Shown here piece after piece: positions 371 through 64,000 of a stretch of DNA of 64,000 nucleotides (position 1 is the first letter of the stretch; each line of letters opens with the position of its first letter). The notes below the pieces were generated by a model that did not search any database, was not told where the DNA came from, and was given only the letters and a program-made list of their open reading frames with translations. Made by a program: the position numbers and the translations under genes. The stretch is from assembly GCF_041381155.1 (NCBI RefSeq), contig NC_091134.1:38213338-38277337 (forward strand), in the 5' to 3' direction. This DNA is from Argopecten irradians. Its lineage: Eukaryota > Mollusca > Bivalvia > Pectinida > Pectinidae.

Positions 371-1924
371 ATAAGAAATGCAAAACGGCCCAGCCATCAG
401 CTGGTGAAAAGCCCTATAGAGTATAAGTAACATAACAATAACAAAAGGTAATGAAAGCCCTAAATAGGAAGTCCGACAATGAACCATATAAAAATACATA
501 AATGCATGTAAATATAATAAAGTACATGTACATAGTACAAAGGAAAGTTACATCATACATACAAATACATGTATTTAATAAACAGAGATTGATACTATGT
601 TAATTTTCAATGTGCAAGGCCTATAAATAATTCATCCTACTAAACATTTTGTATTAAATCATAGGTTTTTTAGGTCAAAGACCCACTACAGACTAAGATA
701 TAGAGAAAGGTAAGGAGCTCCTCTGTGATGCAAAATTGGGAACTGGTAATTCATTTCAAAGTCCTGGCCTACAGTATGGCTACAGACTAATCTCTATATA
801 TTAGTCCATATTAGGTCTTTGACCTACCAGCATATGATTAAATCACAATCAGATATGATCTAATGATTCATATGGATTTTAAATCCTTACTACACCTAAG
901 AACATTCATTTAATTGATTGGCCACTGATTCATAGTTTTATAGTGTTACCACACTGAATCGTCATTTAAATGGGTCGTGTTGCAAGTGGCGAGTTAAATT
1001 TCAACACATATGCCAGTGCACATACCTACATACATGTATATATATGTTTGGTGAACTAAGCTAGCGAGCGTATGTCAGTAACTTGAAGTGTTATAGATTA
1101 TATGACATGTAGAGTATAAACAATCCATCGTACTTTGATTTGTTGTTGTTGTTTTTTAACTAAACATGCCGTGGCAAGACTGTCACTTCTATATGACATT
1201 TTGTTGCACGCTTCCCTTTGTTGACGCGGCCTCGTTTTGGAAAAAAATATGTCATGTTCTATGTAAAGCTTGACTTCGCTCTATTTTTAGAGGAGTATTT
1301 TCCTGGTCAAGCTAGGCAACTGACCACCCATTTTGTTCGCTGTATGCATCGAAAATGATCTGAAGATTATATCTATGAACGGGATAAATTTCAATTTCGT
1401 AAACTTTATATTTCATTGGGCGAAACCTACATTTAACAGGTTTTGCTTGTAATTTCATCATTTTAAACAAAACTTAAAGGTATGCTATGCATGTTCTACT
1501 ATTAACCAATATATTCAGAACAATTTGTTTTTATGATTTAAGGATACTAACGTTCTATTACTCACATATTTTGCAGAAATTAAATACACTATGTACAAAC
1601 ATATATTGAAATTTTATAAATAAACACACTCTTATCACAGATTAGCAATCTCCAGATATACCATTCTTTCATTCTTAAAAAATCTCATATTCTATGATCA
1701 CTATCACATGTAAACATTTGTACATTGCCATTCACATCTAAAAATCTTTTGAAATACAACTTTGGAATGTCAGGATCTTTTCTTCTTTATGTCAATCTCT
1801 TAATTCTTTTGTGAGTCTTATTTCTTGTGAGTTACAAAAATTCCTTTTCAGAAGAAAATTATTTTCATAAACTGGATAAACTAGGGTTGACTTGGAATCT
1901 TTATCAAATATACCCAGGTAAAGC
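371..1924. other. Non-coding stretch with one imperfect inverted repeat
   Basis: No gene could be supported here. An imperfect inverted repeat of about 45 bp per arm lies at 667-830. The left arm has TTAGGTCAAAGACC and the right arm GGTCTTTGACCTA, around a loop of roughly 75 bp, as in a decayed foldback element. The stretch lies downstream of the OSTM1 stop and may hold its 3' UTR. I saw no convincing AATAAA signal on the minus strand. Confidence 0.5.
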
Positions 1925-2092
1925 CAGGGTTCTCACTAAATTTTTAAATAGATGGTTGAAAATTAACAATAGATGGTTGAGGGCCACAAGCCCCCATGGG
2001 GGACAATACTTATTTATGACAAAAATAGCCGGTTGTAAACAAGGAAATACACAGCTGTTTTTGCTGGCAACCGGCTGTTAACGAGAACCCTG
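1925..2092. mobile_element. Short TIR element (CAGGGTTCTC ends)
   Basis: A 168-bp element begins CAGGGTTCTC and ends GAGAACCCTG, so the ends are a 10-bp inverted repeat. AAAGC lies on both sides (1920-1924 and 2093-2097) and is a possible 5-bp target duplication. An 8-bp duplication, as expected of hAT elements, is not seen. It sits 20 bp past the OSTM1 stop codon and so probably lies in that gene's 3' UTR. Confidence 0.65.
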
Positions 2093-2112
2093 AAAGCAGT
2101 CTACAAACTTCG

Positions 2113-5100: not shown

Positions 5101-8100
5101 CAATCGTCAGAAGTATTTCTGTCTTCATGGGTATATTTACTTATTAATAAGCAAATGTTCCGTTTAGCGAAACGTATTATGGAATATCGTTGTAACTTAT
5201 ATGTTGAACTTAGATATTTCTCAAAAGAATATACTGTTGTTTTTATGTCATAAAAATGTCATGCATAATTTGGATTTCATTCTTCAGCCAAACAGCCCAT
5301 CTCGGACTATTATTCACACAATAAAACATAGTCAAACTATACAGTAATGAAAAAAGAATACAGTGGACTGAAATTGCTTAACTTTTTGGGGCACAAAATA
5401 AGATATTTCACTCTAGGAACTCTTCAATTGACGTTCTTGGTGTCTGATATATTTAAAAACTGTTACTATGAAAGTAGGTAAAGTAAACAAATCATGCGGA
5501 ATATTACAGACCCACTATCTGAGTTCTTTAGGCCTTTCACATATTAAAAAGCTGTTTGAAGATTTTCATATATTTGACTTGTCTGACGCCCTTTATTCCA
5601 GCATACTGCAAGGCGTCTTAGTTATTGTCAAGAAGTCGTTTATGTTTGCCAATTTGAACCCTGTGACCTTCAATTAACGTCAATGTAATTCATTTGACAA
5701 ACAACTTAGTAGCCCTTTATTTAAGAATATGTTAGGTCTAACATCATGTATTGATGCCTTCCAATTATTGAGAAGTCGTTTGAATGAAAAGTTTATGAAC
5801 GACGGCGCACGAAGTACGATCACTCAAGGTCACCCTGACCTATCGGGCAAGATGATTTAGGAACATTTGCCCTTCATCCCAACATGCTACATGTACAATA
5901 CCAGGTGTCTAGTCCTCTTAGTTATCCACAAGAAGTCGTTTAAAGATTTTAGTCTATTTGACTCATGTGACCATGAAGGTAGGTCAAGGTCATTCATTTA
6001 AACAAACTTGGTAGTCGTTTAAGCTATCATTCTACAGTCCCAATATCAGATTCCAATGCCTCTTAGTTATTCACAATAAGTCGTTTAAAGTTTTTAGCCT
6101 ATTTGACCCTTGTAACCTTAAATGAACTTGGTAGTCGTTCATGCCAGCATACTTAATGCCTTATATCAGGTATCTAGGCATCTTAGTTATTCACAAGAAA
6201 TCGTTAAAATATTTAGCCTTTTTAAATTCTTTGACCTTGAATGAAGGTCAAGGTAATTCATTTCCACAAATTTGGTGGTCCATCATTTCAGCATTCTACA
6301 TGCCTAATATCAGTTTCTTGGGCCTTTCGGATATTGAGAAGAAGTTGTTTGAATGAAAAGTTTATACGTACGACGAAATGCGAACAGCGCACGACCATGG
6401 ACAAAGCATGGTGACTGTAGGTCATCCTGACCCTTCTGGTTAGATGACCTTATGACATTAAAATGAAATAACGATGAAAATGCGGTCCTGCAGGTAGGGA
6501 GTTAGAATTGTACCTACTGCCCTTATCGCATGATAAGAAAAGGCGACTAAATTTAGGATCGTATCATAGCATCTCTTCTTCCTAACTTTATTTATACTTC
6601 TTAACGTCTTCCTTGACACTGTCTCACATTTGGCCTTCCGTTGAGAGCTCGCCCCTGTGAGGTAGGCTCTGGGTTCTGTCACCTGGCGGAGACACACCCT
6701 GCTTAGCTCTCAGCATTAAGGGAGTAGGACGACTTGTTCGTCTGTTGTCAGTATGATGTGACTGGGGGATGTGTTGCTTGGTGTCTTCGGCGGCATGTTT
6801 CAGTGATATAGCACTATGAAAAGGGCAAGAGTTCCACTATAGAAGAAGACACAACATGAATATACCGAAGTCTCCCATATCGCACACTACGCACTTCATA
6901 CACTCATGATCAGGACACTGCATACATAAGATGCCTTCCTTACATGATCCTGGCTATCAATAGGGCTTTGATTTAATCAAACAAACAATGAAAACAATTT
7001 TATAGAGTCAAGAATGCAGGAATTGGTCTACTGCAAAAGTAAACTGGTTGATTTTCATATATTCTATGGTGTTGCCCCATCAAAGGACAGAACCAAGATA
7101 TTTCATCAAAGTTTTTCCCCCATAATTAATTTAGTAACAATAGTATTTTTTTTTTGAAAATAGTGAATCTGATATAAACATTTACCGACCAATTCTAATA
7201 TACTCATTGATATAGGTATTTCGGTCTCCTTTTGTTCTAAGAAGTTAGACGAAAATATCTAGCAAAATGAAGCTGCTAGAAATCATGCACTTTCATGAAG
7301 GTTGTTGGATGAGAAACAAACTTATAACTTGTAATCAGTACCTGGTAAACATTTTAGTGGTATTATTTCGCAATACCTATATGTTACTAAAGGTAAAATG
7401 AGACATAGCGCCTCGTCTGATGTCTGATTGACGCCAGCAAAATAGTTACCAAATTCAGTCGCCTTTTACGATCATGCAATGGGTATAGCAGGTGCAATTC
7501 TAACGCCCTACCTGAGATGATGGCAACATTGATGGTTCCCTTTAAATAACAATGGGCAAAGGACACATACTGTCCTATTTATTACCTTAATGCTTATACA
7601 GTTTCTGGAATGCAACATGGCATTGTGTATATGTTAAATCATAACTGTCAGTTTTATGTGTCCCACTGTTTCAAAACGGATAAGTAGAATTTCTGAAAAA
7701 TATTATTTAAACATGAGTTTATGATGATTATTTCAAGGTTTGGTCGAAATACGCACCTCATCATCACATTCTACTCCAACAGTAAAGTCGGTAATATTAG
7801 ACAGTGTACTCTCAGTACTTTGATATTATGAAAAAAAACAGGGGGTAGACGAAATTAACCTAAAAAAAACGTGGCATATCCAATGATTCATCAACTTGAG
7901 CTGTTTATGGTAAATCGATGATAACCTGAATATAATTTTAAACATCAAAATTTTAGGGTACTCGAGTAGTGCCTTACTTATTCTGGTGCTCGAACGAAAA
8001 ATTGAAAACTTCAAAAAGTCGTATTTTCTGTCAAATTTGATATTTACGTTCGATTTGTGATCGAATGATATTGGATACAGCCAAGTGTGATATGTCGTTA

Positions 8101-11100
8101 AAAAGGCAATTTTATGTGGTATTTTAAATCACAAGAAAAACATGATTTAAGTGTTTTTACTATGACTTATGCTAGGTAAAAGGCCCAATGGACATTAAAT
8201 TTACCAGTGTTAATGTAGGGGGCGCTGTAGTCCTAATGATGGTCCAATCGGGTTTTAAGTATTATAGACATATGTGTATTAATGCAATTAACTAATTTAA
8301 ATTCAAAAATCAAAAAAATATCGTGGGCGGATTTTCACCCTGTATGCAACACCTCCTTTATACAAGTTCTGTTCCCCTTCCCCCAAGGATGTTTGTGGCC
8401 AAATTTGGTAACAATCCATGTAGAACTCTAGAACAAGTAGCGATTTATAGGATTTACCTCTATTTCCCCTATTGGGCCCCGCCCCTCCTGCCCCTGGGGG
8501 GTCAGAGCCAAAATTTATACATGTTCTGTTCCCCTTCCCCAAGGGATGTTTGTGGCCAAATTTGGTTACAATCCATGCAGAACTCTAGGACAAGCAGCGA
8601 TTTATAGGATTTACCTCTATTTCCCCTATTGGACCCCGCCCCTCCTGCCCCCGGGGGGTCAGAGCCAAAATTTATACAAGTTCTTTTCACCTTCCCCCAA
8701 GGATGTTTGTGGCCAAATTTGGTTACAAACCATGCGGAACTCTATGACTAGTAGCGATTTAAATTAAATGTTGACGGACGGACGGACACCGCGCCATGAC
8801 ATTCGGGCCAGGTGAGCTAAAAACCATGATCCAGTGGCCAGTACCTGGCAACTGCCCCATATGGGATTCAAACTCATGACCTAGAGACAGCCAGGAGTTA
8901 AATATTTTATTTGTTACTATAAGTAAACTGGTATAGACAGATTATACCTATCATTTCATGCTTCCGATTCCTCTCTTGACATTGCATCTCGCATATCAAA
9001 CAATTTAGATCAAAAGCATTCAAAATCTACAGTGGAAAACTACCTAAGCTATCGTAACCTGAGACAAGAATAAATTGTAAGAGATACATACGAAGCATCA
9101 ATTTTCGCTTGGTCCTGGCTACAAAATATCTGGCTCCACCGTAGAAGAGAACTGGCATGGTCAGAAGGATGATCGCTAGGATGACCACTATAGCATCATC
9201 GGCAGAGTGTCTGGAACAGTGTAACTGTTTCCCCCACATTAACCTGGTGTAATTCATCTGAAATAACATGTTCAAATGTATTCACCTAATACAAGCCCTT
9301 ATCCCTATATACACTCTCGTCCAACTATTCATGGCTTATATAACCTTGAATTTGACTGAAAATATCAATACTGTTTAGATTCTTTATTTTATTTCTGTTG
9401 CAGATTGATTCAATGTGGCTTCATTTGTACAATAATTTTGTGAAAAGTTCAAGTTTTGGTTCCATTTACTGCTCCTTTGATTTCCCAACGTGCCTTTGGC
9501 ACTTATCATGTTGAAAAAGTTCAAAGGAAACACCAACAGTGTGTAGTTCAAAGGAACACTATTTCATCTCATGGGAGATAACTCCTCTCTTACCATATCC
9601 ACCAGATCCATACACACTAAGTCGTCTTTAGCGGCTCTGACTTTCTTAAAAAAGGTATTAAGTTGTGTGTAGTTGCTTCGACATACATCACACACACTAT
9701 CATTGTGACCCTGAAACACAAAAAGAGGAACATCAATTTAATCAATTTTCAAAAAACTGAAGATGAAATTAATTCCTTTTGTAAAGCAAGTTGAGCTGTT
9801 TCCAAATATCTATGGTACAAAACCCACAATGCAAACTTTCTCCGAAAATCCTTAGTTCAACAATACCAGATAAATCTGTCTTGAGAATAAATATTTAATT
9901 CTGAAGAGAGCAACTAAATTACTTTGTTGCACATGATGCATTTCATTGAAATTCAAACAGTAACAAGTATTATGCATACAGTAATTATTTCTCCTGCCTA
10001 TCCCACTTTGCATATTATATGTACGTGAAAAAGACAAAGAGAATAAATATTTCTCCATATAAATGATTCACTTTTAAAACAAATTCACAAAATCTACCAA
10101 ACTCAGACTATAACTAGAGCCAGCTGAAATATTTTCCTCAAGCATTGTCTGTTGTGTTTTGATGGATGCAAAAAATTGTTGCGACCAACGTTTAGTAGAA
10201 ATGGAATTTATTATCATTTATTCTCATTTCTCAAAATGCACTTAAATTCTGATATTTTAGCTCCCAAAATACCATATGCATTTTTTGTACGCGTATTTCA
10301 AAACAGGACTATTTTTTCAAATCTCTGTCCATGCATTCTAAATGATGCAAAGAGCAACTTTACCAATGTTCAAATCAATCCGATATAATTAATAAATGCA
10401 AAAAGTAGAGTTGACTTATGCTAGTTTTGATACCACTGCTGGAAAAGTCATCCTTGATAATCCTCAAACGCCAGACAGAACAGTTAGTTATGAATGTACA
10501 AACTAATGACAGAGTGAAACTAAGGGAAGTAACTCTGATATAGAAGACTCTACATGGTGATCGATGGTTACCTTTGGCAATGAATAATGGCGAAAACATG
10601 ATGACACTGTTTTATATTTGTCTATGAACTCTGTTGTATCCTTGCTGTATTGAAAAACCACTGTACCGTTGATATCAATGGACACGCTACTGAAACATCC
10701 TGTAAATTATAAAATACGTTATGTTAACATCTGTACACATATGTATATAAGCAAAATGACACAGTAAAATAAATCTTCATCCAAAGTGTGTTATCCAAGA
10801 TTCTTGAAATTTCAGAGAGCCCTTTAAATTTACAGAGGTGAGAATAATTGCAAGGAACTACACAACAACTTAAGTAGATTGTAATAATTCTAGTATCATG
10901 ACTAAATATGTAGTTGTGAAAAGAAGGTTTAACTTATGATAATTCAATATTGCTTGTTACGAGCATTTTCATTGGCTTAAAAAATTACTTTATCAGCCCA
11001 TAAAGGAAAAAATGGCGTCGCCGTTTGTAACGTTGCTTCTGATTGGCTGAGATGACGGTGTAATGCTTTCATAGACAAAAGAGTCCCGAAATGAATTTTG

Positions 11101-18130: not shown

Positions 18131-18544
18131 TTTTTTTTCAATATGACCCTAACAGGCTTCCGTAAATATCAGCAGAATCACTAAAATGGGATTGAACCCT
18201 CACTGGCTCTCGGTAGCTCACCAGGGGCAGATCGCGGACTGGTTCTCGACTCCGCGATCGGAGAGCGTAATTTCTTATCAAAAATTCAAAAAAAAGTTTT
18301 ATCAATTCCAAAACAACACATGTTCATTGGGCCGAACTTGACGACAACCAAGAGGTAATGGATGCAACAATTGATCATATGTCTTGCTTAATGAATTATC
18401 ACAGGACAAACTGATAGTAAAAACTGGACACCTAACTGCTGAAACTGTCTAAATATATTTTCACAGACCGTTGTGTGATATGATGATCGGATTTTCATCT
18501 ACCGGATTCTATAGTCTTGCAGGGTGTTGTAAGAACGTTTTTTT
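18131..18544. other. Intergenic DNA with GATCGCGGA hairpin
   Basis: GATCGCGGA and TCCGCGATC (about 18230-18260) form a 9-bp stem around a 12-nt loop. The neighbourhood looks faintly tRNA-like (GGTTCTCGACTCC), but no cloverleaf could be drawn. Confidence 0.4.
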
Positions 18545-19035
18545 TATTAATTGTATTTACGTCCTATTAACAGCCAGGGTCATTTAAGGACGGCCTCTCG
18601 TGGATGGATGTGATGTGATGTGCAAAGTGCGTGTTCTGGGAGATTGTGGTATCTTCGTGTTATGTCTTCATGTATAGTGGAACTCGTCCATTTTTATAGT
18701 GCTCTATCACTGAAGCTTGACACCAAAGACACCAAGCAGCACATCCCACCCTATCACATTATACTGACAACGGGTGAACCAGTCGTCCCACTCCCTTTAT
18801 GCCGAGGGCAGCAAGAGCAGAAACTACCACTTAGACTATGGTGTGTCTCGGCTAGGGACCAGAACCCAGATGCTTGCTCACAGGTGCGAGTACTCAACCA
18901 AAGCCCAAAAGTGAGGTCAAGGGAGACATTTGGAAGAAGAAAATAAGTTAGGAAAAAAAGACAAGATCCTAAATTTAGTCGCCTTCTACGATCATGCAAT
19001 AAGAACAGCAGGTACAATTTGCAGGAGAACGGAAG
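18545..19035 (-). mobile_element. SINE-like repeat, family B
   Basis: The near full-length copy reads 3' to 5' along the plus strand: CGTCCTATTAACAGCCAGGG near 18565, GACACCAAAGACACCAAGC near 18720, TAGTCGCCTTCTACGATCAT near 18977. It provides the reference for the fragment that seeded the 40-bp minisatellite at the window end. Confidence 0.8.
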
Positions 19036-19214: not shown

Positions 19215-19419
19215 AACAGCTATAGAATATAGGCGACATTGAACGTTGATGGATTAACAGCTATAGAATATAGGCGACATTGAACGTTGATGGATTAACA
19301 GCTATAGAATATAGGCGACATTGAACGTTGATGGATTAACAGCTATAGAATATAGGCGACATTGAACGTTGATGGATTAACAGCTATAGAATATAGGCGA
19401 CATTGAACGTTGATGGATT
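19215..19419. repeat. 41-bp minisatellite, 5 copies
   Basis: Five essentially identical units start AACAGCTATAGAATATAGGC and fill 205 bp exactly. The uniformity suggests recent expansion. Confidence 0.97.
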
Positions 19420-23300: not shown

Positions 23301-26242
23301 AAATCCTCATGACGTCACAGCTCTTTCCACTCTTTCCTTTTTGACATGATTGATCACCATGAGAGTTATTTCCCCTGAAAAACCATACAAAACCTTACCA
23401 GTAGAATTATGATTAAATTTTGTTGATTTTTCAATACCTATTATCACCAATACAGTTATTTCTTTTGCATAAAGGCATATAAAATATAGTTTTGTGATTA
23501 TATGACAAGAATCTTCCCAAAGTCAAGATAAGTATTTCTATACACTAGACTACAACTGCCCAAGGAGGAGCGATGGCCATAGGGCATAATCTTTAGGAAT
23601 TTCTCTTTAACGTGTTAGTTTGAAACGAGATAAACGAGAAAATTTATTTTCTCACTCGTTAAAACAAAATAGATAATGGCTATTGACTTTTTAGGAGTAA
23701 ACTTATTTCTTTTAAATCTTAAGAATTCCTAAATAGTTTGTATGTACCTGTGTTAGGGTTAGTCCATGTACTGATTCCGTGGGGGTTGAAGGTGGTCGAG
23801 TCCAATTTAGCTCCTATAATCTTTGCCTCTCTCACTGTCGGCAATGATTCATTCATGTCAAGCAGAAGTATACGGCCTTGTTTATTCGGATAAACCCCCT
23901 GTACAAAAATGATTATAATTTGGAACGTATTCTTTAAATTTTCAATAATGATATCTAAATTCATTTATATAATTGGACGAACATGAGAAAAAACAAGAGC
24001 ATAAGGAAACCATGGCGGATAGGAAAAGGTGAAGCAGAAAAAGAAAAGGGGATGAGTGAGTAAGGGAGATGGAAAGGAAAAAAATGGGATGAAATGCATG
24101 AGGAATGAAAAATGAATAGATGAGTAACATGAATGATCTATAGGAGGAACAGGAGGAGAAAGTGTAAGAGTTTGAGAAATTGGAGCAGAAGGACAAACAT
24201 TGTAAATTACATATACTTACGGATGATATGAATGTTAATCCACTAGGCTGAATGGTAAGATCTTCTGATCCACCATCTACAAGATATGTCCGGAGTACAA
24301 TTATACGAACAACAATGTAATAAATCAATCAAACAACTACATATATATATTTTTTTTTTGGAAATGAATATCAAATGATATTTGGTGAACAGAAATGTTA
24401 TTGGTTTTTGTTTCAAAGTTGAGATGTCTCATTTTCACTGCCCGACTTCAACGCGATGTTATAAAGCCGGCGGTTTCTCTCAGAGCTGTCAGCTATGACG
24501 CAAATTCTAATTTCCAATTATATGTTTTTCAGTTTTCCGTCGTTTCATCGATTTGTTTTAAAACTTTCATTTCAGATATTGGTACTTACCAGCGCCGTCT
24601 AGTTCCACACACGGACCCGGAGCATGTCGCGCTATGACGTCATACTTGTCATAGTCCATGAAGAAACTGAAAATTAATTTTCCAGGTAAAATATATAGAC
24701 GAATCGCAATGTCTACAAAACACATAATTTGTATGAAGTCACAAAGAGAAATTAAGACAAAACCTAGCAATGGTCGTAACTGTTTAGTCGCATCACACTG
24801 GCTAAAGAAACTAGAGGAACAAGCTTACAGTAAGTGCTGCAAGCAACACACGTCCCCTGCCGTCAACACACGTCCCCTGCCGTCAACACACGTCCCCTGC
24901 CGTCAAATTTCATTTTTCTAATCTATGGCCAGTTATTATTGCTTAGTTATGCTATCATTGTATGAAGGTTGAACAAATTCTATCTCAAATTATCGTCCGG
25001 ACACGAAAATTTGTGAAACAAACTATTTTTAGCAACAGTAACTTTTTTACCCGAAGATTGATCGAAATCCGTTAATGTTTTCTCAAGTTATCTTCTGGAA
25101 ACTAATATTTTGTGAAACAATTTATTTTTAGTAGCAGTGACCTATGTAGTTGACCTTTTGACCCCAAATCCAATACCAAGCTGTGTTATCCCTGCGTTAC
25201 CTTTGTATGAAGTTTGAACAAATTCCGTTGAAGTGTTCTCAACATATCATCCGGAAACTAAAAAGATTTGTGAAACAATCTATTTTTAGTAACAGTGACC
25301 TTTGTAGTTGACCTTTTGACCCCAAATCTAATCCCAAGCTGTATTTTCTCATATGATACCATTGTGTGAAGATTAAACGAAATCCGTTAATGTTTTCTCA
25401 AGTTATCTTCTGGAAACTAATATTTTGTCAAACAATCTATTTTCAGTAACAGTGACCTGTGTAGTTGACCTTTTGATCCCAAATTCAATCCTAAGCTGTT
25501 ATCCCCTATGTTACGATTATATGAAGTTTGATCAAAGTCTGTTTTTTTCCTCAAGTTATCTTCTGGAAACGATTTCCGGACAGACAGACAGACAGACAGA
25601 CAGGCAGACGGGAACAAACAGTATAGTCCCGTCCGGTTTCACCGACAGGGGACTAAAACTTGTGACATGTAACACTAACACTAAATCAATAAAGCACATG
25701 TCTGAGATATTCCGTTATATATCAGCAAAAGGATCTTGAAGCAATTTTGTAATGTTGGCTGATCCTGAAAAAATACTGTATTTTCAGATATATTTCTTGA
25801 TGAAAAAGATTATCAATTTTTCGGTTTGTTTAGTTTTACGTCCTATTAACAGCCAGGGTCATGTAAGGTTTGTTGGTGGAGGAAAGCCGGAGTATCCGTG
25901 AAAAACCACCGGTCAGCGGTCAGTACCTGGCAACTGCCCCACATGGGATTCAAACTCGCCACCCAGAGGTGGAGGGCTTGTGGTAATATGTCGGGACATC
26001 TTAACCACTCGGCCACCGCGGCCCCGTAAGATTGTCAAGATAGCAACAACCTGAATAGTCAGCAAACGTTGACGATGCTACTTTACACAAAATTAATCTG
26101 TATCAGCCAACGAGAACATTAATACAGACCGATAGAAAGATAGATAGAATGGAAATATAAAAAGTACTTACTAATATTGGGTATAAAATCGAGCTATACC
26201 CGATAGCACTGCGATTATGATGATGGTCCGGAGAGTCGACAT
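20349..26242 (-). CDS. PON: Paraoxonase/arylesterase (PON family), copy 1, 9 exons, 357 aa
   Basis: Exons: 26172-26242, 24590-24666, 24221-24276, 23748-23898, 22948-23068, 22319-22519, 21923-22004, 20638-20781, 20349-20519. All splice sites are GT-AG, phases agree, and 1,074 nt give 357 residues (human PON1 has 355 and also nine exons). PONs are six-bladed propeller, calcium-dependent lactonases/arylesterases, usually secreted or membrane-anchored. By alignment from memory, calcium ligands E54, D55, N161, N217, D262 and N263 are kept. So are the histidine dyad H108 and H128, H278, and the C43-C351 disulfide pair. The hydrophobic N-terminus (residues 4-17) resembles the retained signal anchor of PON1. 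Exon 8 has two codons more than copies 2 and 3. Intron 4 carries a broken second exon 5. Native substrate is unknown. Confidence 0.96.
20850..21515. repeat. ~310-bp MITE-like repeat in two direct copies, with 32-bp perfect palindrome
   Basis: Copies at about 20850-21155 and 21202-21514 share GGTGCATGCGCAATCATTAC, TTTTTCGGGATGCAATTAAT and TTTGTCAGCGGTGGAGCATC. The first is followed by the inverted end, making a perfect 32-bp palindrome at 21140-21171 centred on ATCTTTAAAGAT. It lies in intron 7 of PON copy 1. Confidence 0.85.
23326..23374 (-). pseudogene. Truncated duplicate of PON exon 5 inside intron 4 of copy 1
   Basis: About 49 nt match the 5' part of exon 5, including a usable acceptor (TTTTTCAG before GGGAAATAACTC), but the 3' half and donor are missing. 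DNA upstream of it in transcription (about 23375-23480) matches intron 4 of copy 2. DNA upstream of the working exon 5 (about 23069-23160) matches copy 3. Copy 1 is thus a mosaic of the two types. Confidence 0.85.
24844..24905. repeat. 20-bp tandem repeat (~3 copies)
   Basis: Three perfect copies of ACACACGTCCCCTGCCGTCA-type units lie in intron 1 of PON copy 1. Confidence 0.95.
24955..25655 (+). mobile_element. Pearl-like element with CAGA microsatellite
   Basis: Core units of about 155-160 bp (GTGAAACAATCTATTTTTAG near 25113, 25268 and, with changes, 25428; a shorter-spaced one near 25013) carry AGTTGACCTTTTGACCCC. They end in (CAGA)n at about 25580-25610, then GGGACTAAAAC. It has the same architecture as the other pearl-like elements here but a different sequence family. 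It lies in intron 1 of PON copy 1. Confidence 0.75.
25817..26027 (-). mobile_element. tRNA-derived SINE, near complete
   Basis: On the minus strand the head reads GGTGGCCGAGTGGTTAAG, a tRNA-Ser/Leu-like A box. A B-box-like GAGTTTGAATCCC follows about 65 bp on. The body ends CTGGCTGTTAATAGGACGT. It is flanked by AAGATTATCAA (25806-25816) and AAGATTGTCAA (26028-26038), an 11-bp target duplication with one mismatch, as left by LINE-driven insertion. Confidence 0.9.
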
Positions 26243-26386: not shown

Positions 26387-26884
26387 AAAAAAAAATAAAA
26401 AAATAAATAAAAAATAATATAGGCAACACACTGCATTAGTTTTTCCCTACCAATAATGCGACTTTATTCAAGGTCATAAGAAAGTGTGTGAACACATCGC
26501 ATGGGTTCATTTATATATATGCTGCATGTTTATGCACATATCGATAATAATGATATACAAAAAAAACTATATTTTGTCTACAGTGTATATAAGCTATTAA
26601 GACCAAAATCGGCGTGTTTAGGTTGCAAAAACTTTACCATGGTTAAGTGATCTTAATCAAGAGAGCTTACATATAGGAGGCCATGGTTACCGAGTAATAT
26701 TATTCACCGCTATCACTGATAATGTATATATTACGCATTTTAGAACCGGATTAGGAAATGTTCCCGAGTCAAAAATACCTAACAGATAATGTACCGACTG
26801 TTCAGGGGAGATAATAATTCCTTCATAAATTGTACCAAGGACAAAAACAACCTAGTGGACTAAATCAATTCATATTAAAGGGAC

Positions 26885-27350
26885 AAACAACAAAACCCAA
26901 ATTAACTACAAATCAACTCTTAACAAACGACAAAACCCAAATTAACTACAAATCAACTCTTAACAAACGACAAAACCAAAATTAACTACAAATAAACTCT
27001 TAACAAACGACAAAACCAAAATTAACTACAAATCAACTCTTAACAAACGACAAAACCCAAATTAACTACAAATCAACTCTTTACATATGACAAAACCCAA
27101 ATTAACTACAAATCAACTCTAAACAAACGACAAAACCCAAATTAACTACAAATAAACTCTTAACAAACGACAAAACCCAAATTAACTACAAATCAACTCT
27201 TTACATATGACAAAACCCAAATTAACTACAAATCAACTCCTAAAACAGGACAAAAAACTAATTGCAAATCAAGTCCTAATATAGGACAACACCTATCTGC
27301 AAATCAAGTCCTAACAAAGGACAAAACACACCTACAGATCAACGACTTAT
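26885..27350. repeat. 40-bp minisatellite upstream of PON copy 1
   Basis: About nine good units of 40 bp (AAATTAACTACAAATCAACT and spacer) are followed by diverged units to about 27350. A related 35-bp array sits at the matching place upstream of copy 2 (35005-35430), so the seed pre-dates that duplication. Confidence 0.93.
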
Positions 27351-34027: not shown

Positions 34028-34370
34028 AAAATGAAACATGATGCCGAAGACACCGAACAACACAACCCACCTGGACATGTTATACTGAAAATGGGCGAAC
34101 CAGTCGTACAACTCTTGATATGCTGAGCGTTAAGCAGAAGCAGAAACTATCACGTTTTAGACATTGGTGTGTCTAGGCCAGTGGACAGAACCCAGAGCCT
34201 ACCTCATAATGCGAGCACTCAAATAAAGGTCAAAATTGAGGGGTGTCAAAGGAGACGTTTGGAGGAAGAAAGTCAGTTAAGAAGAAGAGAAAAGGTAATA
34301 TCATGAATTTACGATCATGCAATAGGGACAGCATGTACAATTCTAACGCTCTACCTGCAGAGTCCACAAA
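34028..34370 (-). mobile_element. SINE-like repeat, family B, partial
   Basis: It matches the copy at 18720-19035 in order and orientation (GCCGAAGACACCGAACAACA, GGTGTGTCTAGGCCAGTGG, TTTACGATCATGCAATAGGG). The 3' tail is missing. It lies in intron 1 of the PON pseudogene. Confidence 0.75.
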
Positions 34371-35004: not shown

Positions 35005-35430
35005 AATAGGGGACAAAAATACCTACAAATAAAATCCTAACAAAGGACAAAAAGTTACTACAAATCAATTCATAACATAGGACAAAAAGTAACTACAACT
35101 CAACTCATAACAAAGTATAAAAAGTAACTACAACTCAACTCCTAACATAGGACAAAAAGTAACTACAACTCAACTCCTAACATAGGACAAAAAGTAACTA
35201 CAACTCAACTCCTAACATAGGACAAAAAGTAACTACAACTCAACTCCTAACATAGGACAAAAAGTAACTACAACTCAACTCATAACAAAAGACAAAAACT
35301 GACTACAAATCAAATCCAAACAAAGGACAAAAATTTACTACGTATCAAATCATAAATAGGGCGAAAAGCAACTACAAATCAACTCCTAACAAAGAACAAA
35401 AAATATAACAATTCAACTCTTAAAAAAGGA
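35005..35430. repeat. 35-bp minisatellite upstream of PON copy 2
   Basis: About 11-12 units are present, the central ones (35106-35280) nearly identical: CTAACATAGGACAAAAAGTA plus 15 bp. It is positionally and partly sequence-homologous to the 40-bp array upstream of copy 1. Confidence 0.93.
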
Positions 35431-36348
35431 CAAAAATATACTACTTAAAAAGTATATATATCTGAATCGAAATATCGACATTATCCGAGAAGAACTCGAA
35501 ATAATTTTATTATGTCCTGCCAATTTTAAACGCTTATGCATCATATACACTAGAACAGAGAATAGTAGGTACGGAAATGAAGATGTTGAATAGTCAATTA
35601 CATTTGTATTTGTACATAAATTAAACATTATTTACCGCTGATTGATTTGAGGTTTTCCCTTCAGCTTGACCTCTATATCCAGACTTCTTTTCATCAGTTT
35701 GAAAAGTATAAATTGGCAAACTGACAATTATTTATCTTGGGCGTTCTGAGATTCACGTTGGTTTCTTCTTGTTTATTTTGACGATGTCATTCAGTTGCTG
35801 GACATTGTTATCAAAGATTTTTTTTAGTGTGCTTCCCGCTTTTGTTAAAAGTACTGCGTGGTTGCTCGTTGGAGTGTTGAAAAATACACCACTAGTGGTC
35901 TTTTTTTTAACTGAGTGAGTTTGATTTACCAGAATTTTACCTAATTAGGTTAGGGTTTAACACATTGTCTTGCAAACGTAACGATGCGAAAAATATATAG
36001 ATAACAGTTTAAATTGTGCAATTATGTTTTCATTTAGTTTGTATTTCATTCACAATAGTTACATTCGTGGTCCAATTCTCGCGCTACGATAAAAAACAGT
36101 GTACATAAGAGAATGTCGATTCATCCCAAACAAGTGGATTTTATTAAAAAAAGAAATTAATGACCCAAGTTGGAAAAATATCATATATGAACAAACTACC
36201 ATTCAATCATCGAAGACATTTCTGAAATCCCACAACGCAATCTACCTCAAATACACTTTCCATTGTTAACATAAAACACATGTACTTGATGAGATAGACC
36301 GCTACTGTTTGATGTTAAAGTGAATATTGTAAGTTTACGCATTAAAAG
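35431..36348. other. Spacer between PON copies 2 and 3
   Basis: No gene is seen. It contains the duplicated downstream flank also present near 19740-20340 and 27830-28330. An AATAAA on the minus strand (36140-36145), about 205 nt past the copy 3 stop, is a candidate polyadenylation signal. Confidence 0.6.
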
Positions 36349-39300: not shown

Positions 39301-42300
39301 ATAAGGCGCAAAAGACATATTGGATGAGAAAAAGGAGGAGTAGAGAAGTAGCAGATGAAGTGAGTATAGGACAGAAGAAGAAGAGAACGGAAAAACAGAT
39401 AAAATGATGGATGAACATTAACAAATAAAAGGAGAGGATGAGACGAGGCTTCAAGAGAACTAAAGGAGAGAAAATGATGATGGAGAGTTGAAAAGTGGAA
39501 TAATGTGAAGACGGAAGAAAGTGGGATTAGTGGAAAAGAAAAAATGGGGTGTGTTGTAGGGGGAACAAGAGTAGAGAAGGGAGGGTTGAGAGACGAATCG
39601 GATGAGGTGTGCACGAGGAACACGGGTAGAGAAGAGAGAGGGTGAGAGACGAATCGGATGAGGTGTGTAGTAGGAACAAGAGTAGAGAAGAGAGGGGATC
39701 AGTGACGAATCGGATGAGGTGTGTAGTAGGAACAATGGTAGAGAAGAGAGGTGATGAGAGACGAATCGGATGAGGTGTGTAGTAGGAACAAGAGTAGAGA
39801 TGAGAGGAGATGAGAGACGAATCGGATGAGGTGTGTAGGAGGAACAAGGGTAGAGAAGAGAGGGGATCAGTGACGAATCGGATGAGGTGTGTAGGAGGAA
39901 CAATGGTAGAGAAGAGAAGGGATCAGTGACGAATCGGATGAGGTGTGTAGGAGGAACAATGGTAGAGAAGAGAGGGGATCAGTGACGAATCGGATGAGGT
40001 GTGTAGTAGGAACAATGGTAAGAGAGAGAGGAGGGGATGAGAGACGAATCGGATGAGGTGTGTGGAGGAACAATGGTAGAGAAGAGAGGGGATCAGTGAC
40101 GAATCGGATGAGGTGTGTAGGAGGAACAATGGTAGAGAAGAGAGGGGATCAGTGACGAATCGGATGAGGTGTGTAGGAGGAACAATGGTAGAGAAGAGAG
40201 GGGATCAGTGACGAATCGGATGAGGTGTGTAGGAGGAACAATGGTAGAGAAGAGAGGGGATCAGTGACGAATCGGATGAGGTGTGTAGGAGGAACAATGG
40301 TAGAGAAGAGAAGGGATCAGTGACGAATCGGATGAGGTGTGTAGGAGGAACAATGGTAGAGAAGAGAGGGGATCAGAGACGAATCGGATGAGGTGTGTAG
40401 GAGGAACAATGGTAGAGAAGAGAAGGGATCAGTGACGAATCGGATGAGGTGTGTAGGAGGAACAATGGTAGAGAAGAGAGGGGATCAGAGACGAATCGGA
40501 TGAGGTGTGTAGGAGGAACAATGGTAGAGAAGAGAGGGGATCAGAGACGAATCGGATGAGGTGTGTAGGAGGAACAATGGTAGAGAAGAGAGGGGATCAG
40601 TGACGAATCGGATGAGGTGTGTAGGAGGAACAATGGTAGAGAAGAGAGGGGATCAGTGACGAATCGGATGAGGTGTGTAGGAGGAACAATGGTAGAGAAG
40701 AGAGGGGATCAGTGACGAATCGGATGAGGTGTGTAGTAGGAACAATGGTAGAGAAGAGAGGGGATCAGTGACGAATCGGATGAGGTGTGTAGTAGGAACA
40801 ATGGTAGAGAAGAGAGGGGATGAGAGACGAATCGGATGGAGGTGTGTAGAGGAACAATGGTAGAGAAGAGAGGGATCAGAGACGAAGGATGAGGGTAGGA
40901 GGAGAGACAATGGTAGAGAAGAGAAGGGATCAGTGACGAATCGGATCGTGAGGTGTGTAGGAGGAACAATGGTAGAGAAGAGAGGGGATGAGAGACGAAT
41001 CGGATGAGGTGTGTAGGAGGAACAATGGTAGAGAAGAGAGGGGATGAGAGACGAATCGGATGAGGTGTGTAGGAGGAACAATGGTAGAGAAGAGAGGGGA
41101 TCAGTGACGAATCGGATGAGGTGTGTAGGAGGAACAATGGTAGAGAAGAGAGGGGATGAGAGACGAATCGGATGAGGTGTGTAGTAGGAACAAGAGTAGA
41201 GAAGAGAGGGGATCAGGGACGAATCGGATGAGGTGTGTAGGAGGAACAAGAGTAGAGAAGAGAGGGGATGAGAGACGAATCGGATGAGGTGTGTAGTAGG
41301 AACAAGGGTAGAGAAGAGAAGGGATCAGAGACGAATCGGATGAGGTGTGTAGGAGGAACAATGGTAGAGAAGAGAGGGGATGAGAGACGAATCGGATGAG
41401 GTGTGTAGAAGGAACAATGGTAGAGAAGAGAGGGGATCAGTGACGAATCGGATGAGGTGTGTAGGAGGAACAATGGTAGAGAAGAGAGGGGATGAGAGAC
41501 GAATCGGATGAGGTGTGTAGGAGGAACAAGGAAAGAAGGAAGTGAGGAGAATATGAGGAAGTGTGGGAAGAACGATGGTAAAGAAAGAGTGAGAGAAGAG
41601 AACAACGGTAACGTGGACTGAGGAAGAGTAAGGGAGTTAAAAATGGGTGAAGGTGTACGAGTAACGAAGGAAAACAAAAGAGCAGGAGAGTCATGAATGA
41701 GTAAGTATCACACATAACAAATTCAACTCACGGATGATATAAATGTCAGTCCACTAGGCAAAATAGTAAGGTCTTCGGATCCACCATCTAACAAACAAAA
41801 ATGAATATGTCTTTATAAATAAATGTCTAGATGTGTAACATAAGACTCTTTCATATGTGAAGGTGAAGGATAGGGTTATTCTTCCCGGGGGTCACAAAAT
41901 GTTGTACATGTATAACTCGAGGCTTGCCGAGGGTTTTATAACATTTTGTGATCCCGGGGGTAGAATATATCTATACTTTGTATCCGCATATGAAAAAAAG
42001 AATGTTTCCCTCATACAATTTATGCCATTTATTGCAATTCTGCAACTAGAATATCCCACCAGTTTGAAATGAGTTTGCCTGCAAGTCAATTCTCCAAACA
42101 TGAAAATTGCGTTTTATTTTCAACGCAAATTCTACTGTCGCCGTGACATCACCAGGCTGTATTGCATGGGTAGCCATGTAATACAGCCTCAGAGTGTTAT
42201 GTTTGAGACCAGCTAGTGTTACACCCGTAGGTATAAGAGAATAAGTCATATGCATCATCAACTATAATTACAGGTATATCAGCTCATGATATGAAATTGG

Positions 42301-43674
42301 TCGTATTATAGTTTTAAAACATGTTCATGTTTTACCCGAGTTCAACACGAAATTTTATTCGCATATTTAACCTTAATTTGTATTCATTAGCACCTGTATA
42401 ATGTAGAGAGACATTAACGTTTTCTGTTCATCTCTGCCTTGCAGGTAGGACATTAGGATAAAAGGTGACTATTTTGTCTGACCAACTTTTTTCTTTCTTT
42501 CTAACGCATCCCTTGATACATCCTCATGTTCGGCATTCAGTTGAGTGTTTCCTAGTGTGAGGAAGGCTCTAGGTTCCGCCCCTAGCCGAGATATACCATA
42601 TATATTTATCAAAGTTGTAGATTCTGCTTCTGCTTTTAACAGTCATCATACAGAGACAAGGGACGACTGATTTGCCCGTTGTCAATGTGACCGGGGTGTA
42701 GTGTTTGCTGTTGGATGTCTATGTCAACATGCTGCAGTGAGAAAAGCACTTTGCAATGACAAAAAGTTCCACTATCACAAATATATACAATACGATGATA
42801 TTGCAAACTAAAACACAAAAGCTCTTTTACACACAGCATAAATGATCTTGGCTCACCACGGGACTTTTCACATTTGTGATATTTAATGACCTCTGCCAGA
42901 TGACTTACCAGCGCCATCTAGTTCCACACACGGACCCGGAGCATGTCGAGTTATGACGTCATACCTTTCGTAGTGCATAAAGAAACTGAAAATCAAAACG
43001 TATTTTACTAATATAGGAAAATCGAAATCGAAAAATCACTGTAACAAAACGTCTATCAAATTAAATAAGAAAGACACACTGCTGCAGAGAAGTATCGGCG
43101 TAAGAATTTTATTGTAAAGCAAGTGAAAATATCTTTTTGACTAAGCTTACATTGAAAATTACGTAATTTGAGACAAATATCTGTGATTTTGTAAGTGATA
43201 ACATAAGATAATAGTACATAATGCTTGTATCTTGTATCTTGTATCTTGATCATAAAGAAGCAGGGGAAAACATGATCAATTATGTCATTGCAACAAATTA
43301 TGACGCCATGTTTGGGGTCTGCTTGTTGATGTATTGAACTTGTTGTCACTATGAATGTGTGCTACGGGACTATCTATCAGGATTATATGGCTAATTTTAC
43401 CATCTGATTATGTTAGTAACTGTCCTTTAAATGTTCACCTATCACGCTTATCAATTCCTTTATAGCTAACGAACTTTGCCAGATACTTTACCTTGAAAAC
43501 CATCCAACGTGAAACCTGTAAATAATCGGCGATCACTTAAACATCAGACCGATAATGTAAGGCAGATAGACAGATAGAATTTATAATTGTAAAATGTACT
43601 TACTAATATCGGATACCAAATCGAGCTATACCCGATAGCACTGCAACTATGATGATGGTCTGGAGAGTCGACAT
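36349..43674 (-). CDS. PON: Paraoxonase/arylesterase (PON family), copy 3, 9 exons, 355 aa
   Basis: Exons: 43604-43674, 42909-42985, 41732-41787, 38537-38687, 38109-38229, 37476-37676, 37056-37137, 36713-36850, 36349-36519. Every junction is GT-AG, in the same phases as copy 1. The coding length is 1,068 nt (355 residues, the length of human PON1). Visible PON signatures: GGSEDL (calcium ligands), SPHGIST and VINHV (histidine dyad), INDL, VPNGIN, MDNIEVD and GDLWIGCHP, with both disulfide cysteines (GPCVEL near the start, LVLCNV near the end). The N-terminus is a hydrophobic signal-anchor-like segment. The enzyme is expected to be a calcium-dependent lactonase/arylesterase on the secretory route. 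Intron 3 is swollen by a 2 kb polypurine minisatellite. The 5' flank differs from copies 1 and 2 from about 13 bp before the ATG, so expression may differ. Confidence 0.96.
38700..39589. repeat. Purine-rich (GA) tract in PON copy 3 intron 3
   Basis: Nearly 900 bp is strongly A+G on the plus strand and so C+T on the transcribed-sense strand. Shorter GA-rich stretches sit in intron 3 of copy 1 (about 23990-24210) and copy 2 (about 33340-33480). The bias is therefore ancestral to the cluster. Confidence 0.85.
39590..41530. repeat. 56-bp polypurine-biased minisatellite, ~35 units
   Basis: Units contain AATGGTAGAGAAGAGAGGGG then GACGAATCGGATGAGGTGTG, period 56. A few units have indels, mostly between 40010 and 40960. 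Two-state positions recur across units (GATCAGTGACG or GATGAGAGACG; AGGAGGAAC or AGTAGGAAC), giving a readable variant map. Neither strand shows a gene. Long minus-strand ORFs arise only because the unit lacks stop codons. Confidence 0.97.
41877..41966. mobile_element. Foldback MITE core in PON copy 3 intron 2
   Basis: Arms of about 43 bp: TTCTTCCCGGGGGTCACAAA on the left and its inverse on the right (TTTTGTGATCCCGGGGGTAG), meeting near CTCGAGGCTTGCCGAG. A second small hairpin, AGGCTGTATT/AATACAGCCT, lies at 42153-42189. Confidence 0.85.
42430..42790 (+). mobile_element. SINE-like repeat, family B, diverged
   Basis: It contains AGGCTCTAGGTTCCGCCCC, AGGGACGACTGATTTGCCCG and AAAAAGTTCCACTATCAC, matching 6640-6840 in order. 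It lies in intron 2 of PON copy 3. Confidence 0.7.
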
Positions 43675-58911: not shown

Positions 58912-59056
58912 GTAGGAATATTTTTTATTTCTTCATTACACTTTCATTTAAGATATAATTTATGTCACTTTATTTGGTAAAGTAAATTTGAGAAAGGAAA
59001 ATGTTTGTATTTTATAAGTTTTTGAGTATGATCATGGTTTGCAATTGTTAGCTGTT

Positions 59057-59200
59057 TGGTTGATATTGTTTTAATGTCCGAATTATAGCTAAGGTCATTT
59101 AAGGACGGACTCCCCTATATGATATGTGTTGCATGCGTAGATGTGTGTATGTTTTTGGAGGCTATATTATATTCGTGTTGTATCCCCTTGTAATAGTGAG
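59057..59200 (-). mobile_element. SINE-like family B 3' part, source of the minisatellite
   Basis: GTCATTTAAGGACGGACTC (about 59092) matches the family B tail at about 18577 (GTCATTTAAGGACGGCCTC). The following sequence lines up with 18600-18680 up to and into the first minisatellite unit. Confidence 0.75.
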
Positions 59201-62200
59201 GCTGTATTATATTCGTGTTGTATCCCCTTGTAATAGTGAGGCTGTATTATATTCGTGTTGTATCCCCTTGTAATAGTGAGGCTGTATTATATTCGTGTTG
59301 TATCCCCTTGTAATAGTGAGGCTGTATTATATTCGTGTTGTATCCCCTTGTAATAGTGAGGCTGTATTATATTCGTGTTGTATCCCCTTGTAATAGTGAG
59401 GCTGTATTATATTCGTGTTGTATCCCCTTGTAATAGTGAGGCTGTATTATATTCGTGTTGTATCCCCTTGTAATAGTGAGGCTGTATTATATTCGTGTTG
59501 TATCCCCTTGTAATAGTGAGGCTGTATTATATTCGTGTTGTATCCCTTGTAAAGTGAGCTTGTAATAGTGAGGCTGTATTATATTCGTGTTGTATCCCCT
59601 TGTAATAGTGAGGCTGTATTATATTCGTGTTGTATCCCCTTGTAATAGTGAGGCTGTATTATATTCGTGTTGTATCCCCTTGTAATAGTGAGGCGTATTA
59701 TATTCGTGTTGTATCCCCTTGTAATAGTGAGACTGTATTATATTTGTGTTGTATCCCCTTGTAATAGTGAGGCTGTATTATATTCGTGTTGTATCCCCTT
59801 GTAATAGTGAGGCTGTATTATATTCGTGTTGTATCCCTTGTAAAGTGAGGCTGTATTATATTCGTGTTGTATCCCTTGTAATAGTGAGGCTGTATTATAT
59901 TCGTGTTGTATCCCCTTGTAATAGTGAGGCTGTATTATATTCGTGTTGTATCCCCTTGTAATAGTGAGGCTGTATTATATTCGTGTTGTATCCCCTTGTA
60001 ATAGTGAGGCTGTATTATATTCGTGTTGTATCCCCTTGTAATAGTGAGGCTGTATTATATTCGTGTTGTATCCCCTTGTAATAGTGAGGCTGTATTATAT
60101 TCGTGTTGTATCCCCTTGTAATAGTGAGGCTGTATTATATTCGTGTGTTGTATCCCTTGTAATAGTGAGGCTGTATTATATTCGTGTTGTATCCCCTTGT
60201 AATAGTGAGGACTGTATTATATTTCGTGTTGTATCCCCTTGTAATAGTGAGGCTGTATTATATTCGTGTTGTATCCCCTTGTAATAGTGAGGCTGTATTA
60301 TATTCGTGTTGTATCCCCTTGTAATAGTGAGGCTGTATTATATTCGTGTTGTATCCCCTTGTAATAGTGAGGCTGTATTATATTCGTGTTGTATCCCCTT
60401 GTAATAGTGAGGCTGTATTATATTCGTGTTGTATCCCCTTGTAACAGTGAGGCTGTATTATATTCGTGTTGTATCCCCTTGTAATAGTGAGGCTGTATTA
60501 TATTCGTGTTGTATCCCCTTGTAATAGTGAGGCTGTATTATATTCGTGTTGTATCCCCTTGTAATAGTGAGGCTGTATTATATTATTTCGTGTTGTATCC
60601 CCTTGTAATAGTGAGGCTGTATTATATTCGTGTTGTATCCCCTTGTAATAGTGAGGCTGTATTATATTCGTGTTGTATCCCCTTGTAATAGTGAGGCTGT
60701 ATTATATTCGTGTTGTATCCCCTTGTAACAGTGAGGCTGTATTATATTCGTGTTGTATCCCCTTGTAATAGTGAGGCTGTATTATATTCGTGTTGTATCC
60801 CCTTGTAATAGTGAGGCTGTATTATATTCGTGTTGTATCCCCTTGTAATAGTGAGGCTGTATTATATTCGTGTTGTATCCCCTTGTAATAGTGAGGCTGT
60901 ATTATATTCGTGTTGTATCCCCTTGTAATAGTGAGGCTGTATTATATTCGTGTTGTATCCCCTTGTAATAGTGAGGCTGTATTATATTCGTGTTGTATCC
61001 CCTTGTAATAGTGAGGCTGTATTATATTCGTGTTGTATCCCCTTGTAATAGTGAGGCTGTATTATATTCGTGTTGTATCCCCTTGTAATAGTGAGGCTGT
61101 ATTATATTCGTGTTGTATCCCCTTGTAATAGTGAGGCTGTATTATATTCGTGTTGTATCCCCTTGTAATAGTGAGGCTGTATTATATTGTGTTGTATCCC
61201 TTGTAATAGTGAGGCTGTATTATATTCGTGTTGTATCCCCTTGTAATAGTGAGGCTGTATTATATTCGTGTTGTATCCCCTTGTAATAGTGAGGCTGTAT
61301 TATATTCGTGTTGTATCCCCTTGTAATAGTGAGGCTGTATTATATTCGTGTTGTATCCCCTTGTAATAGTGAGGCTGTATTATATTCGTGTTGTATCCCC
61401 TTGTAATAGTGAGGCTGTATTATATTCGTGTTGTATCCCCTTGTAATAGTGAGGCTGTATTATATTCGTGTTGTATCCCCTTGTAATAGTGAGGCTGTAT
61501 TATATTCGTGTTGTATCCCCTTGTAATAGTGAGGCTGTATTATATTCGTGTTGTATCCCCTTGTAATAGTGAGGCTGTATTATATTCGTGTTGTATCCCC
61601 TTGTAATAGTGAGGCTGTATTATATTCGTGTTGTATCCCCTTGTAATAGTGAGGCTGTATTATATTCGTGTTGTATCCCCTTGTAATAGTGAGGCTGTAT
61701 TATATTCGTGTTGTATCCCCTTGTAAATAGTGAGGCTGTGTATTATATTCGTGTTGTATCCCCTTGTAATAGTGAGGCTGTATTATATTCGTGTTGTATC
61801 CCCTTGTAATAGTGAGGCTGTATTATATTCGTGTTGTATCCCCTTGTAATAGTGAGGCTGTATTATATTCGTGTTGTATCCCCTTGTAATAGTGAGGCTG
61901 TATTATATTCGTGTTGTATCCCCTTGTAATAGTGAGGCTGTATTATATTCGTGTTGTATCCCCTTGTAATTGTGAGGCTGTATTATATTCGTGTTGTATC
62001 CCCTTGTAATAGTGAGTGTATTATAGGCTGTATTATATTCGTGTTGTATCCCCTTGTAATAGTGTGAGGCTGTATTATATTCGTGTTGTATCCCCTTGTA
62101 ATAGTGAGGCTGTATTATATTCGTGTTGTATCCCCTTGTAATAGTGAGGCTGTATTATATTCGTGTTGTATCCCCTTGTATAGTGAGCGTATATATTCGT

Positions 62201-64000
62201 GTTGTATCCCTTGTAATAGTGAGGCTGTATTATATTCGTGTTGTATCCCCTTGTAACAGTGAGGCTGTATTATATTCGTGTTGTATCCCCTTGTAATAGT
62301 GAGGCTGTATTATATTCGTGTTGTATCCCCTTGTAATAGTGAGGCTGTATTATATTCGTGTTGTATCCCCTTGTAATAGTGAGGCTGTATTATATTCGTG
62401 TTGTATCCCCTTGTAATAGTGAGGCTGTATTATATTCGTGTTGTATCCCCTTGTAATAGTGTGAGGTTGTATTATATTCGTGTTGTATCCCCTTGTAACA
62501 GTGAGGCTGTATTATATTCGTGTTGTATCCCCTTGTAATAGTGAGGCTGTATTATATTCGTGTTGTATCCCCTTGTAATAGTGAGGCTGTATTATATTCG
62601 TGTTGTATCCCCTTGTAATAGTGAGGCTGTATTATATTCGTGTTGTATCCCCTTGTAATAGTGAGGCTGTATTATATTCGTGTTGTATCCCCTTGTAATA
62701 GTGAGGCTGTATTATATTCGTGTTGTATCCCCTTGTAATGAGGCTGTAGGCTAGTGAGGCTGTATTATATTCGTGTTGTATCCCCTTGTAATAGTGAGGC
62801 TGTATTATATTCGTGTTGTATCCCCTTGTAATAGTGAGGCTGTATTATATTCGTGTTGTATCCCCTTGTAATAGTGAGGCTGTATTATATTCGTGTTGTA
62901 TCCCCTTGTAATAGTGAGGCTGTATTATATTCGTGTTGTATCCCCTTGTAATAGTGAGGCTGTATTATATTCGTGTTGTATCCCCTTGTAATAGTGAGGC
63001 TGTATTATATTCGTGTTGTATCCCCTTGTAATAGTGAGGCTGTATTATATTCGTGTTGTATCCCCTTGTAATAGTGAGGCTGTATTATATTCGTGTTGTA
63101 TCCCCTTGTAATAGTGAGGCTGTATTATATTCGTGTTGTATCCCCTTGTAATAGTGAGGCTGTATTATATTCGTGTTGTATCCCCTTGTAATAGTGAGGC
63201 TGTATTATATTCGTGTTGTATCCCCTTGTAATAGTGAGGCTGTATTATATTCGTGTTGTATCCCCTTGTAACAGTGAGGCTGTATTATATTCGTGTTGTA
63301 TCCCCTTGTAATAGTGAGGCTGTATTATATTCGTGTTGTATCCCCTTGTAATAGTGAGGCTGTATTATATTCGTGTTGTATCCCCTTGTAATAGTGAGGC
63401 TGTATTATATTCGTGTTGTATCCCCTTGTAATAGTGAGGCTGTATTATATTCGTGTTGTATCCCCTTGTAATAGTGAGGCTGTATTATATTCGTGTTGTA
63501 TCCCCTTGTAATAGTGAGGCTGTATTATATTCGTGTTGTATCCCCTTGTAATAGTGAGGCTGTATTATATTCGTGTTGTATCCCCTTGTAATAGTGAGGC
63601 TGTATTATATTCGTGTTGTATCCCCTTGTAATAGTGAGGCTGTATTATATTCGTGTTGTATCCCCTTGTAAAGTGAGGCTGTATTATATTCGTGTTGTAT
63701 CCCCTTGTAATAGTGAGGCTGTATTATATTCGTGTTGTATCCCCTTGTAATAGTGAGGCTGTATTATATTCGTGTTGTATCCCCTTGTAATAGTGAGGCT
63801 GTATTATATTCGTGTTGTATCCCCTTGTAATAGTGAGGCTGTATTATATTCGTGTTGTATCCCCTTGTAATAGTGAGGCTGTATTATATTCGTGTTGTAT
63901 CCCCTTGTAATAGTGAGGCTGTATTATATTCGTGTTGTATCCCCTTGTAACAGTGAGGCTGTATTATATTCGTGTTGTATCCCCTTGTAATAGTGAGGCT
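59156..64000. repeat. 40-bp minisatellite, ~120 units, runs off the window
   Basis: Unit GAGGCTGTATTATATTCGTG then TTGTATCCCCTTGTAATAGT, period 40. Most units are identical. A minority have AACAGT for AATAGT, single-base losses (ATCCCTTG) or short indels. It lines up with ATTGTGGTATCTTCGTGTTA in SINE-like family B, so it grew from inside that repeat. The repeated plus-strand frames (LYYIRVVSPCNSEA) are by-products. Confidence 0.98.

Follow-up and report, generated by a model that had tools for sequence, protein, structure and literature searches.

The locus considered here raises the question of whether a long minisatellite can arise inside a single copy of a dispersed retroposon and, beyond this one case, whether the same retroposon family has given rise to tandem repeats elsewhere in the genome. 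The window, i.e. the whole stretch of 64,000 nucleotides of Argopecten irradians that was analysed (C1:38213338-38277337 of the 845.8-Mb genome), ends within an array of 40-bp units, which the initial annotation had described as a minisatellite born inside a SINE-like element, hereafter family B. At least sixteen chromosome-sized contigs belong to this genome. A muscle myosin gene at C5:45.937M agrees with the species: two of its exons match PDB chains 1dfk, 1b7t and 1kk7, which are bay scallop proteins, at 107 of 107 and 101 of 104 aligned residues, the three mismatches being located at exon edges, while 2os8 and 2ec6 have lower scores. The features of the window and of the continuation of the locus (L009) are shown in Table 1.

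Table 1. Family B copies, the focal array and other tandem repeats (window positions, unless a contig or region is given)
Feature	Position	Strand	Basis
Host family B copy, tail-side (3') remnant left of the array	59045..59157	- (SINE sense)	Consensus match
40-bp minisatellite array (focal array), from consensus 160-198	59158..64000, on to C1:38279215 (L009:1878)	-	TRF, unit analysis, mapping on consensus
Rest of the host SINE beyond the array	L009:1879-2051		Matches consensus 205-374, 77%, E 2.1e-32
Family B copy, single unit, reference copy of the initial annotation	18537..19014	-	Consensus 51-549, 83%
Family B copy	6511..6993	+	Consensus 48-549, 79%
Partial family B copy	34032..34337	-	Consensus 231-549, 81%
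Partial family B copy	42469..42816	+	Consensus 150-495, 71%
157-158 bp tandem repeats	2815-3134, 8357-8761, 25053-25570, 25579-25609		TRF; one beside GACA microsatellite
Minisatellite, 56 bp x 35	39555-41529		TRF
Minisatellite, 41 bp x 5, perfect	19215-19419		TRF
Minisatellite, 40 bp x 9	26883-27255		TRF
Minisatellite, 35 bp x 12	35011-35444		TRF

The 157-158 bp repeats of the window presumably resemble the BIV160/Pearl repeats of bivalves. As for the minisatellites with 56-, 41-, 40- (nine copies) and 35-bp units, no match to family B was found at E 0.001.

The family B copy at 18400-18960 was used as a query and gave 44 matches (40 scored of 6,620 first-look candidates), and a consensus was built from 28 copies, which are about 90% alike in pairwise comparison, short flanks included. 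Identity among the copies drops at both ends, on one side past a (TTTG)n tail. Target-site duplications of 11-13 bp, lying directly beside the TTTG tail and the far end, were found in eight of the 19 copies, out of these 28, in which both ends could be placed; in the control, unrelated flank pairings reached 9 bp in 6% of the cases. This tail and these duplications give family B the appearance of a LINE-mobilised SINE, as far as its sequence features indicate. Promoter-box matches in the consensus were degenerate only, with the A box matching at many places, and the likeness to tRNA was not convincing.

The focal array is enclosed on both sides by one family B copy. Window positions 59045-59205 match consensus positions 45-205 at 69% identity (E 2e-16) and the left flank alone matches positions 45-119 (E 4.9e-11), while on the right, outside the window, family B resumes at consensus position 205 and runs to position 374. 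This right flank, which lay beyond the view of the initial annotation, is stronger evidence than the left half, and the proposed birth inside a SINE-like element is supported by the presence of family B on both sides of the array, by the marks of a mobile SINE described above and by the arrays that arose within family B at other loci (see below). The unit itself differs from its consensus counterpart at several positions (31 of 40 identical); aligned alone to the consensus, it scores 47, more than any of 1,000 dinucleotide shuffles (mean 31.3, maximum 41.5). The flank and the first unit had also been aligned with the family B copy at 18545-18700, and this likeness holds: between 59057-59200 and the copy at 18545, 94 of 135 positions are identical, with a local score of 50 vs. 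at most 20 for 500 shuffles. Two outcomes had been named beforehand as speaking against a SINE origin, namely a unit no closer to family B than shuffled sequence and a consensus lacking the 59092-59200 flank; since the unit exceeds its shuffles and the consensus contains this flank, neither was found.

The initial annotation had counted more than 120 near-identical units running past the window, which was confirmed: TRF finds 120 copies within the window and, once the continuation is included, the array totals 6,721 bp with 166 unit anchors, length and unit number both being taken from one assembly. It thereby clears the minimum of four monomers for a SINE-derived satellite. In the unit analysis, 129 of 165 units are identical, 28 forms are distinguished, and the variant units are spread along the length of the array. 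Identity to the consensus is 74-77% for the host copy, vs. 99.5% among the units themselves (sample of 30); late growth of the array, or its homogenisation, would be expected to leave such a difference.

From 138 similarity matches, the focal continuation and 19 other regions were taken, mostly because the match covered several units. In each of the 19 regions there are tandem arrays, and their units align to family B; since the regions were picked by likeness, this proportion is not a rate. Their units are mostly of 49 bp, with others of 40, 41, 43, 45 and 47 bp, and they fall on consensus positions 151-198 (most of them), approximately 124-180, 160-198 (the focal array and L028) or 176-216 (L023); other stretches add units at positions 149-183, 237-325 and 311-350. 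Among the 23 arrays of the 20 regions, the expected SINE parts were found on both sides in nine and on one side in 12, the remaining two being L010, whose SINE pieces do not follow the order of the element, and L022, where none of these parts was found. In 11 further stretches, SINE sequence lies on both sides in six, i.e. L062 (41-bp unit), L063 (26 bp), L064 (43 bp), L065 (43 bp), L066 (50 bp) and L067 (47 bp), and the SINE flanks are less complete in L059 (74 bp), L060, L061, L068 and L069, for several of these five because the stretch ends within the array.

Some of these loci have a structure of their own. At L022 (G000:C16:28646000-28652500, 1794-2302), a younger family B copy with 93% likeness to the consensus interrupts an array of 45-bp family-B-like units; here, a SINE seems to have landed within an array of its own kind. 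L026 (G000:C4:1917500-1926500) holds a 158-unit array of 45-bp units (1061-8188), followed at 8239-8561 by three 107-bp units from a different part of that SINE, so two expansions took place in one family B copy. Identical tandem SINE matches also lie 12-17 kb apart at C1:24.955M/24.972M and at C1:12.555M/12.567M, a pattern that a recent segmental duplication would leave, as would haplotypes not collapsed in the assembly.

As a whole, tandem family B units (two or more) occur at no fewer than 51 places, 30 of them read as sequence and 21 seen as pattern matches only. This count, which includes some mere dimers and an array at C4:19.10M that is SINE-like only in part, is made up of the 20 similarity-chosen regions, the focal locus included, 17 additional places among the 18 loci with exact-core dimers, two from a looser core motif, nine from a segment at consensus 277, one from a segment at consensus 336 and two from a core 14-mer. 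Unit length ranges from 26 to 74 bp, and no fewer than five distinct boundaries are used. The idea that family B copies with expandable cores serve as a genome-wide source of minisatellites thus stands as regards the number of places, but not as regards a single core, several segments and boundaries being involved.

Genome-wide, there are 154 places at which two exact core motifs lie 29-59 bp from each other (control, 0), and the first 100 of these comprise the 18 dimer loci. A looser form of the motif gave 502 dimer matches (control, 1), about half or more of those listed coming from the focal array. A control segment at consensus 277, located 110 bp from the core, had been expected to give a number near zero; it gave 997 dimer matches, and 259 in a narrower form of the pattern with the largest array left out, with units of 31, 41, 43, 44, 45, 49 and 59 bp. 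Up to C4:36.72M, this segment is duplicated at nine or more separate loci, two apparent segmental copies being left out, vs. 15 core loci over the same part. A third segment, at consensus 336, gave 12 matches, all from one array. The 40-bp core as a unique hotspot is therefore ruled out by the consensus-277 control: expansion is a property of much of family B, and is uneven along the element. Even so, the core may expand somewhat more readily than the control segment, since fewer copies retain its motif intact (15 of 44 vs. 28 of 46). Expansion also takes place at the scale of the whole element, as in L042 (1069-1917) and L057 (1063-2346), where nearly whole family B copies lie head to tail, two and three times, respectively.

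With regard to frequency, there are 2,528 exact occurrences of the core 14-mer (control, 4). The first 100 correspond to 69 places in one 19.5-Mb stretch, of which 65 hold a single copy; the other four are two arrays in which the motif recurs every 74 bp, a dimer, and a pair separated by 159 bp. The share of family B copies with arrays thus seems not to exceed a few per cent (four of 69, in this one stretch), a rough figure because the patterns require exact matches, only the first 100 places were counted, and an exact match is likelier in an array. Among the 32 sources that were not selected for arrays (the window, L009 and L029-L058, with 94 tandem arrays), and leaving the focal array aside, part or all of family B was seen duplicated in L030, L042, L055 and L057; these four were left out of the 51 places.

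The explanation that best accounts for these data, and which we hold to be quite probable, is that single-unit SINE insertions are followed by duplication between short repeats and by growth in place. At the focal site, a family B SINE would have inserted as an ordinary single-unit copy, and a 40-bp internal segment would then have been duplicated in place between short direct repeats (GAG...GAG). Unequal exchange or replication slippage would have enlarged this dimer to the approximately 166 near-identical units, leaving the remainder of the SINE as flanks, and like events would have taken place at many other family B copies, with other segments and unit boundaries. What we infer from the structures seen today is that the arrays grew in place, that slippage or exchange was the step involved, and that they are unstable at present.

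The duplication junctions carry more microhomology than random positions do: where the edges could be read (11 loci), exact direct repeats are 2.09 bases long on average, vs. 0.85 at random positions (P = 0.0005). Repeats of three or more bases were found at four of the 11 (GAG at the focal locus, ACC in L062, GTGTT in L063 and ACAC in L064) and none at two. In the consensus, CGTGTT repeats lie 26 bp apart, which is the unit length of L063. The junction data thus modestly favour duplication between short repeats. Counting against birth in place are the shortness of the microhomology and its absence at the two junctions, as well as the 12 of 23 arrays with one recognisable flank, the disordered L010 and the lack of SINE flanks at L022.

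A family B source that already carried two or more core units could also have been retroposed as a dimer, which then grew separately at each site. Most of the similarity-chosen regions share a 49- or 47-bp unit at consensus 151-198, and the junction common to many of the 49-bp-unit loci could be one old event spread by retroposition. However, such a dimer cannot account for all loci, given the different junctions and segments elsewhere, and the focal 40-bp unit is unlike the 49-bp unit. Moreover, the single copies of one subfamily have GTG on each side of the core, spaced as in the 49-bp unit, which means that the same junction can arise repeatedly. Retroposition of a ready-made dimer is consequently regarded as unlikely. 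That the SINE origin is correct and the number of units an assembly artefact is very unlikely: near-identical arrays are hard to assemble and the count comes from one assembly, but the variant units are distributed along the array, and elsewhere in the genome there are further arrays built of different units. Helitron-like or Pearl-like elements with central tandem repeats, which are common in bivalves and described there (PMC9659126, PMC6947457), might have carried the arrays around the genome, and the window does contain 157- to 158-bp arrays of another kind. Yet 24 of the 26 similarities between the flanks of the 20 array loci are SINE B, the other two being a local duplication within L016 and a weak similarity of L015 to the focal left flank; shared ends of a Helitron-like carrier were not found at these flanks, and such a carrier is highly improbable. 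Finally, a chance likeness between unit and SINE, to which the moderate score of the unit alone (47 vs. 41.5 for the best shuffle) lends some colour, is as good as dismissed, since none of the 1,000 shuffles reaches that score and both flanks are family B, the right one refuting it.

The birth of tandem repeats within SINE copies has precedents. The SINE-derived satellites (sSats) of squamates (PMC10702118) are likewise tandem repeats built from one portion of a SINE and bordered by SINE sequence, are born independently from several parts of the element, and are more homogeneous in longer arrays; they differ by units of approximately 70-290 nt, vs. 26-74 bp in family B, and by mostly one extended SINE terminus, vs. 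often both in family B, and are reported to prefer subtelomeric sites. Minisatellites have also arisen inside copies of mouse B1 and of human Alu (Bois 1998; Jurka and Gentles 2006; both as cited in PMC9659126 and PMC6947457), where instability was studied; both cases involve another SINE and another phylum, and the mouse unit, (GGCAGA)n, is much shorter. For Alu, Ahmed and Liang (2012, PMC3389668) report birth from any region and, as for family B, short direct repeats are implicated. Among molluscs, the PcH-sat of the limpet Patella caerulea (PMC11121367), derived in large part from a Nin-SINE, is a 179-bp pericentromeric satellite making up approximately 10% of the genome, whereas the family B arrays are dispersed minisatellites arising locus by locus. 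The model of Haber and Louis (1998, as summarised in PMC6947457) similarly invokes duplication between short flanking direct repeats and subsequent growth, with repeats of 5-10 bp vs. exact junction repeats of 0-5 bp here. In the literature searched, which covered few subscription papers and was judged by titles and opening lines of abstracts, no recognised report of SINE-derived minisatellites in scallops or bivalves was found. The family B arrays belong with the SINE-derived satellites; the principle is already known and the novelty modest.

Tentatively, and with somewhat more doubt than confidence, family B may be viewed as a genome-wide nursery of minisatellites, in which a few per cent of the copies would hold arrays from several segments, internal arrays arising because short direct repeats are spread through the element. 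Such arrays would then represent a large share of the VNTR loci of the scallop, and their birth could be counted per copy. Near-identical starting copies, mostly with a single unit (65 of the 69 places counted), amount to replicates of one experiment, which could reveal which segments duplicate, which junctions are used and which dimers grow. The first step in the birth of a minisatellite would thereby become measurable instead of being reconstructed from one locus. The arrays would also be candidate genetic markers in a farmed shellfish, and family B is potentially a countable system for minisatellite birth.
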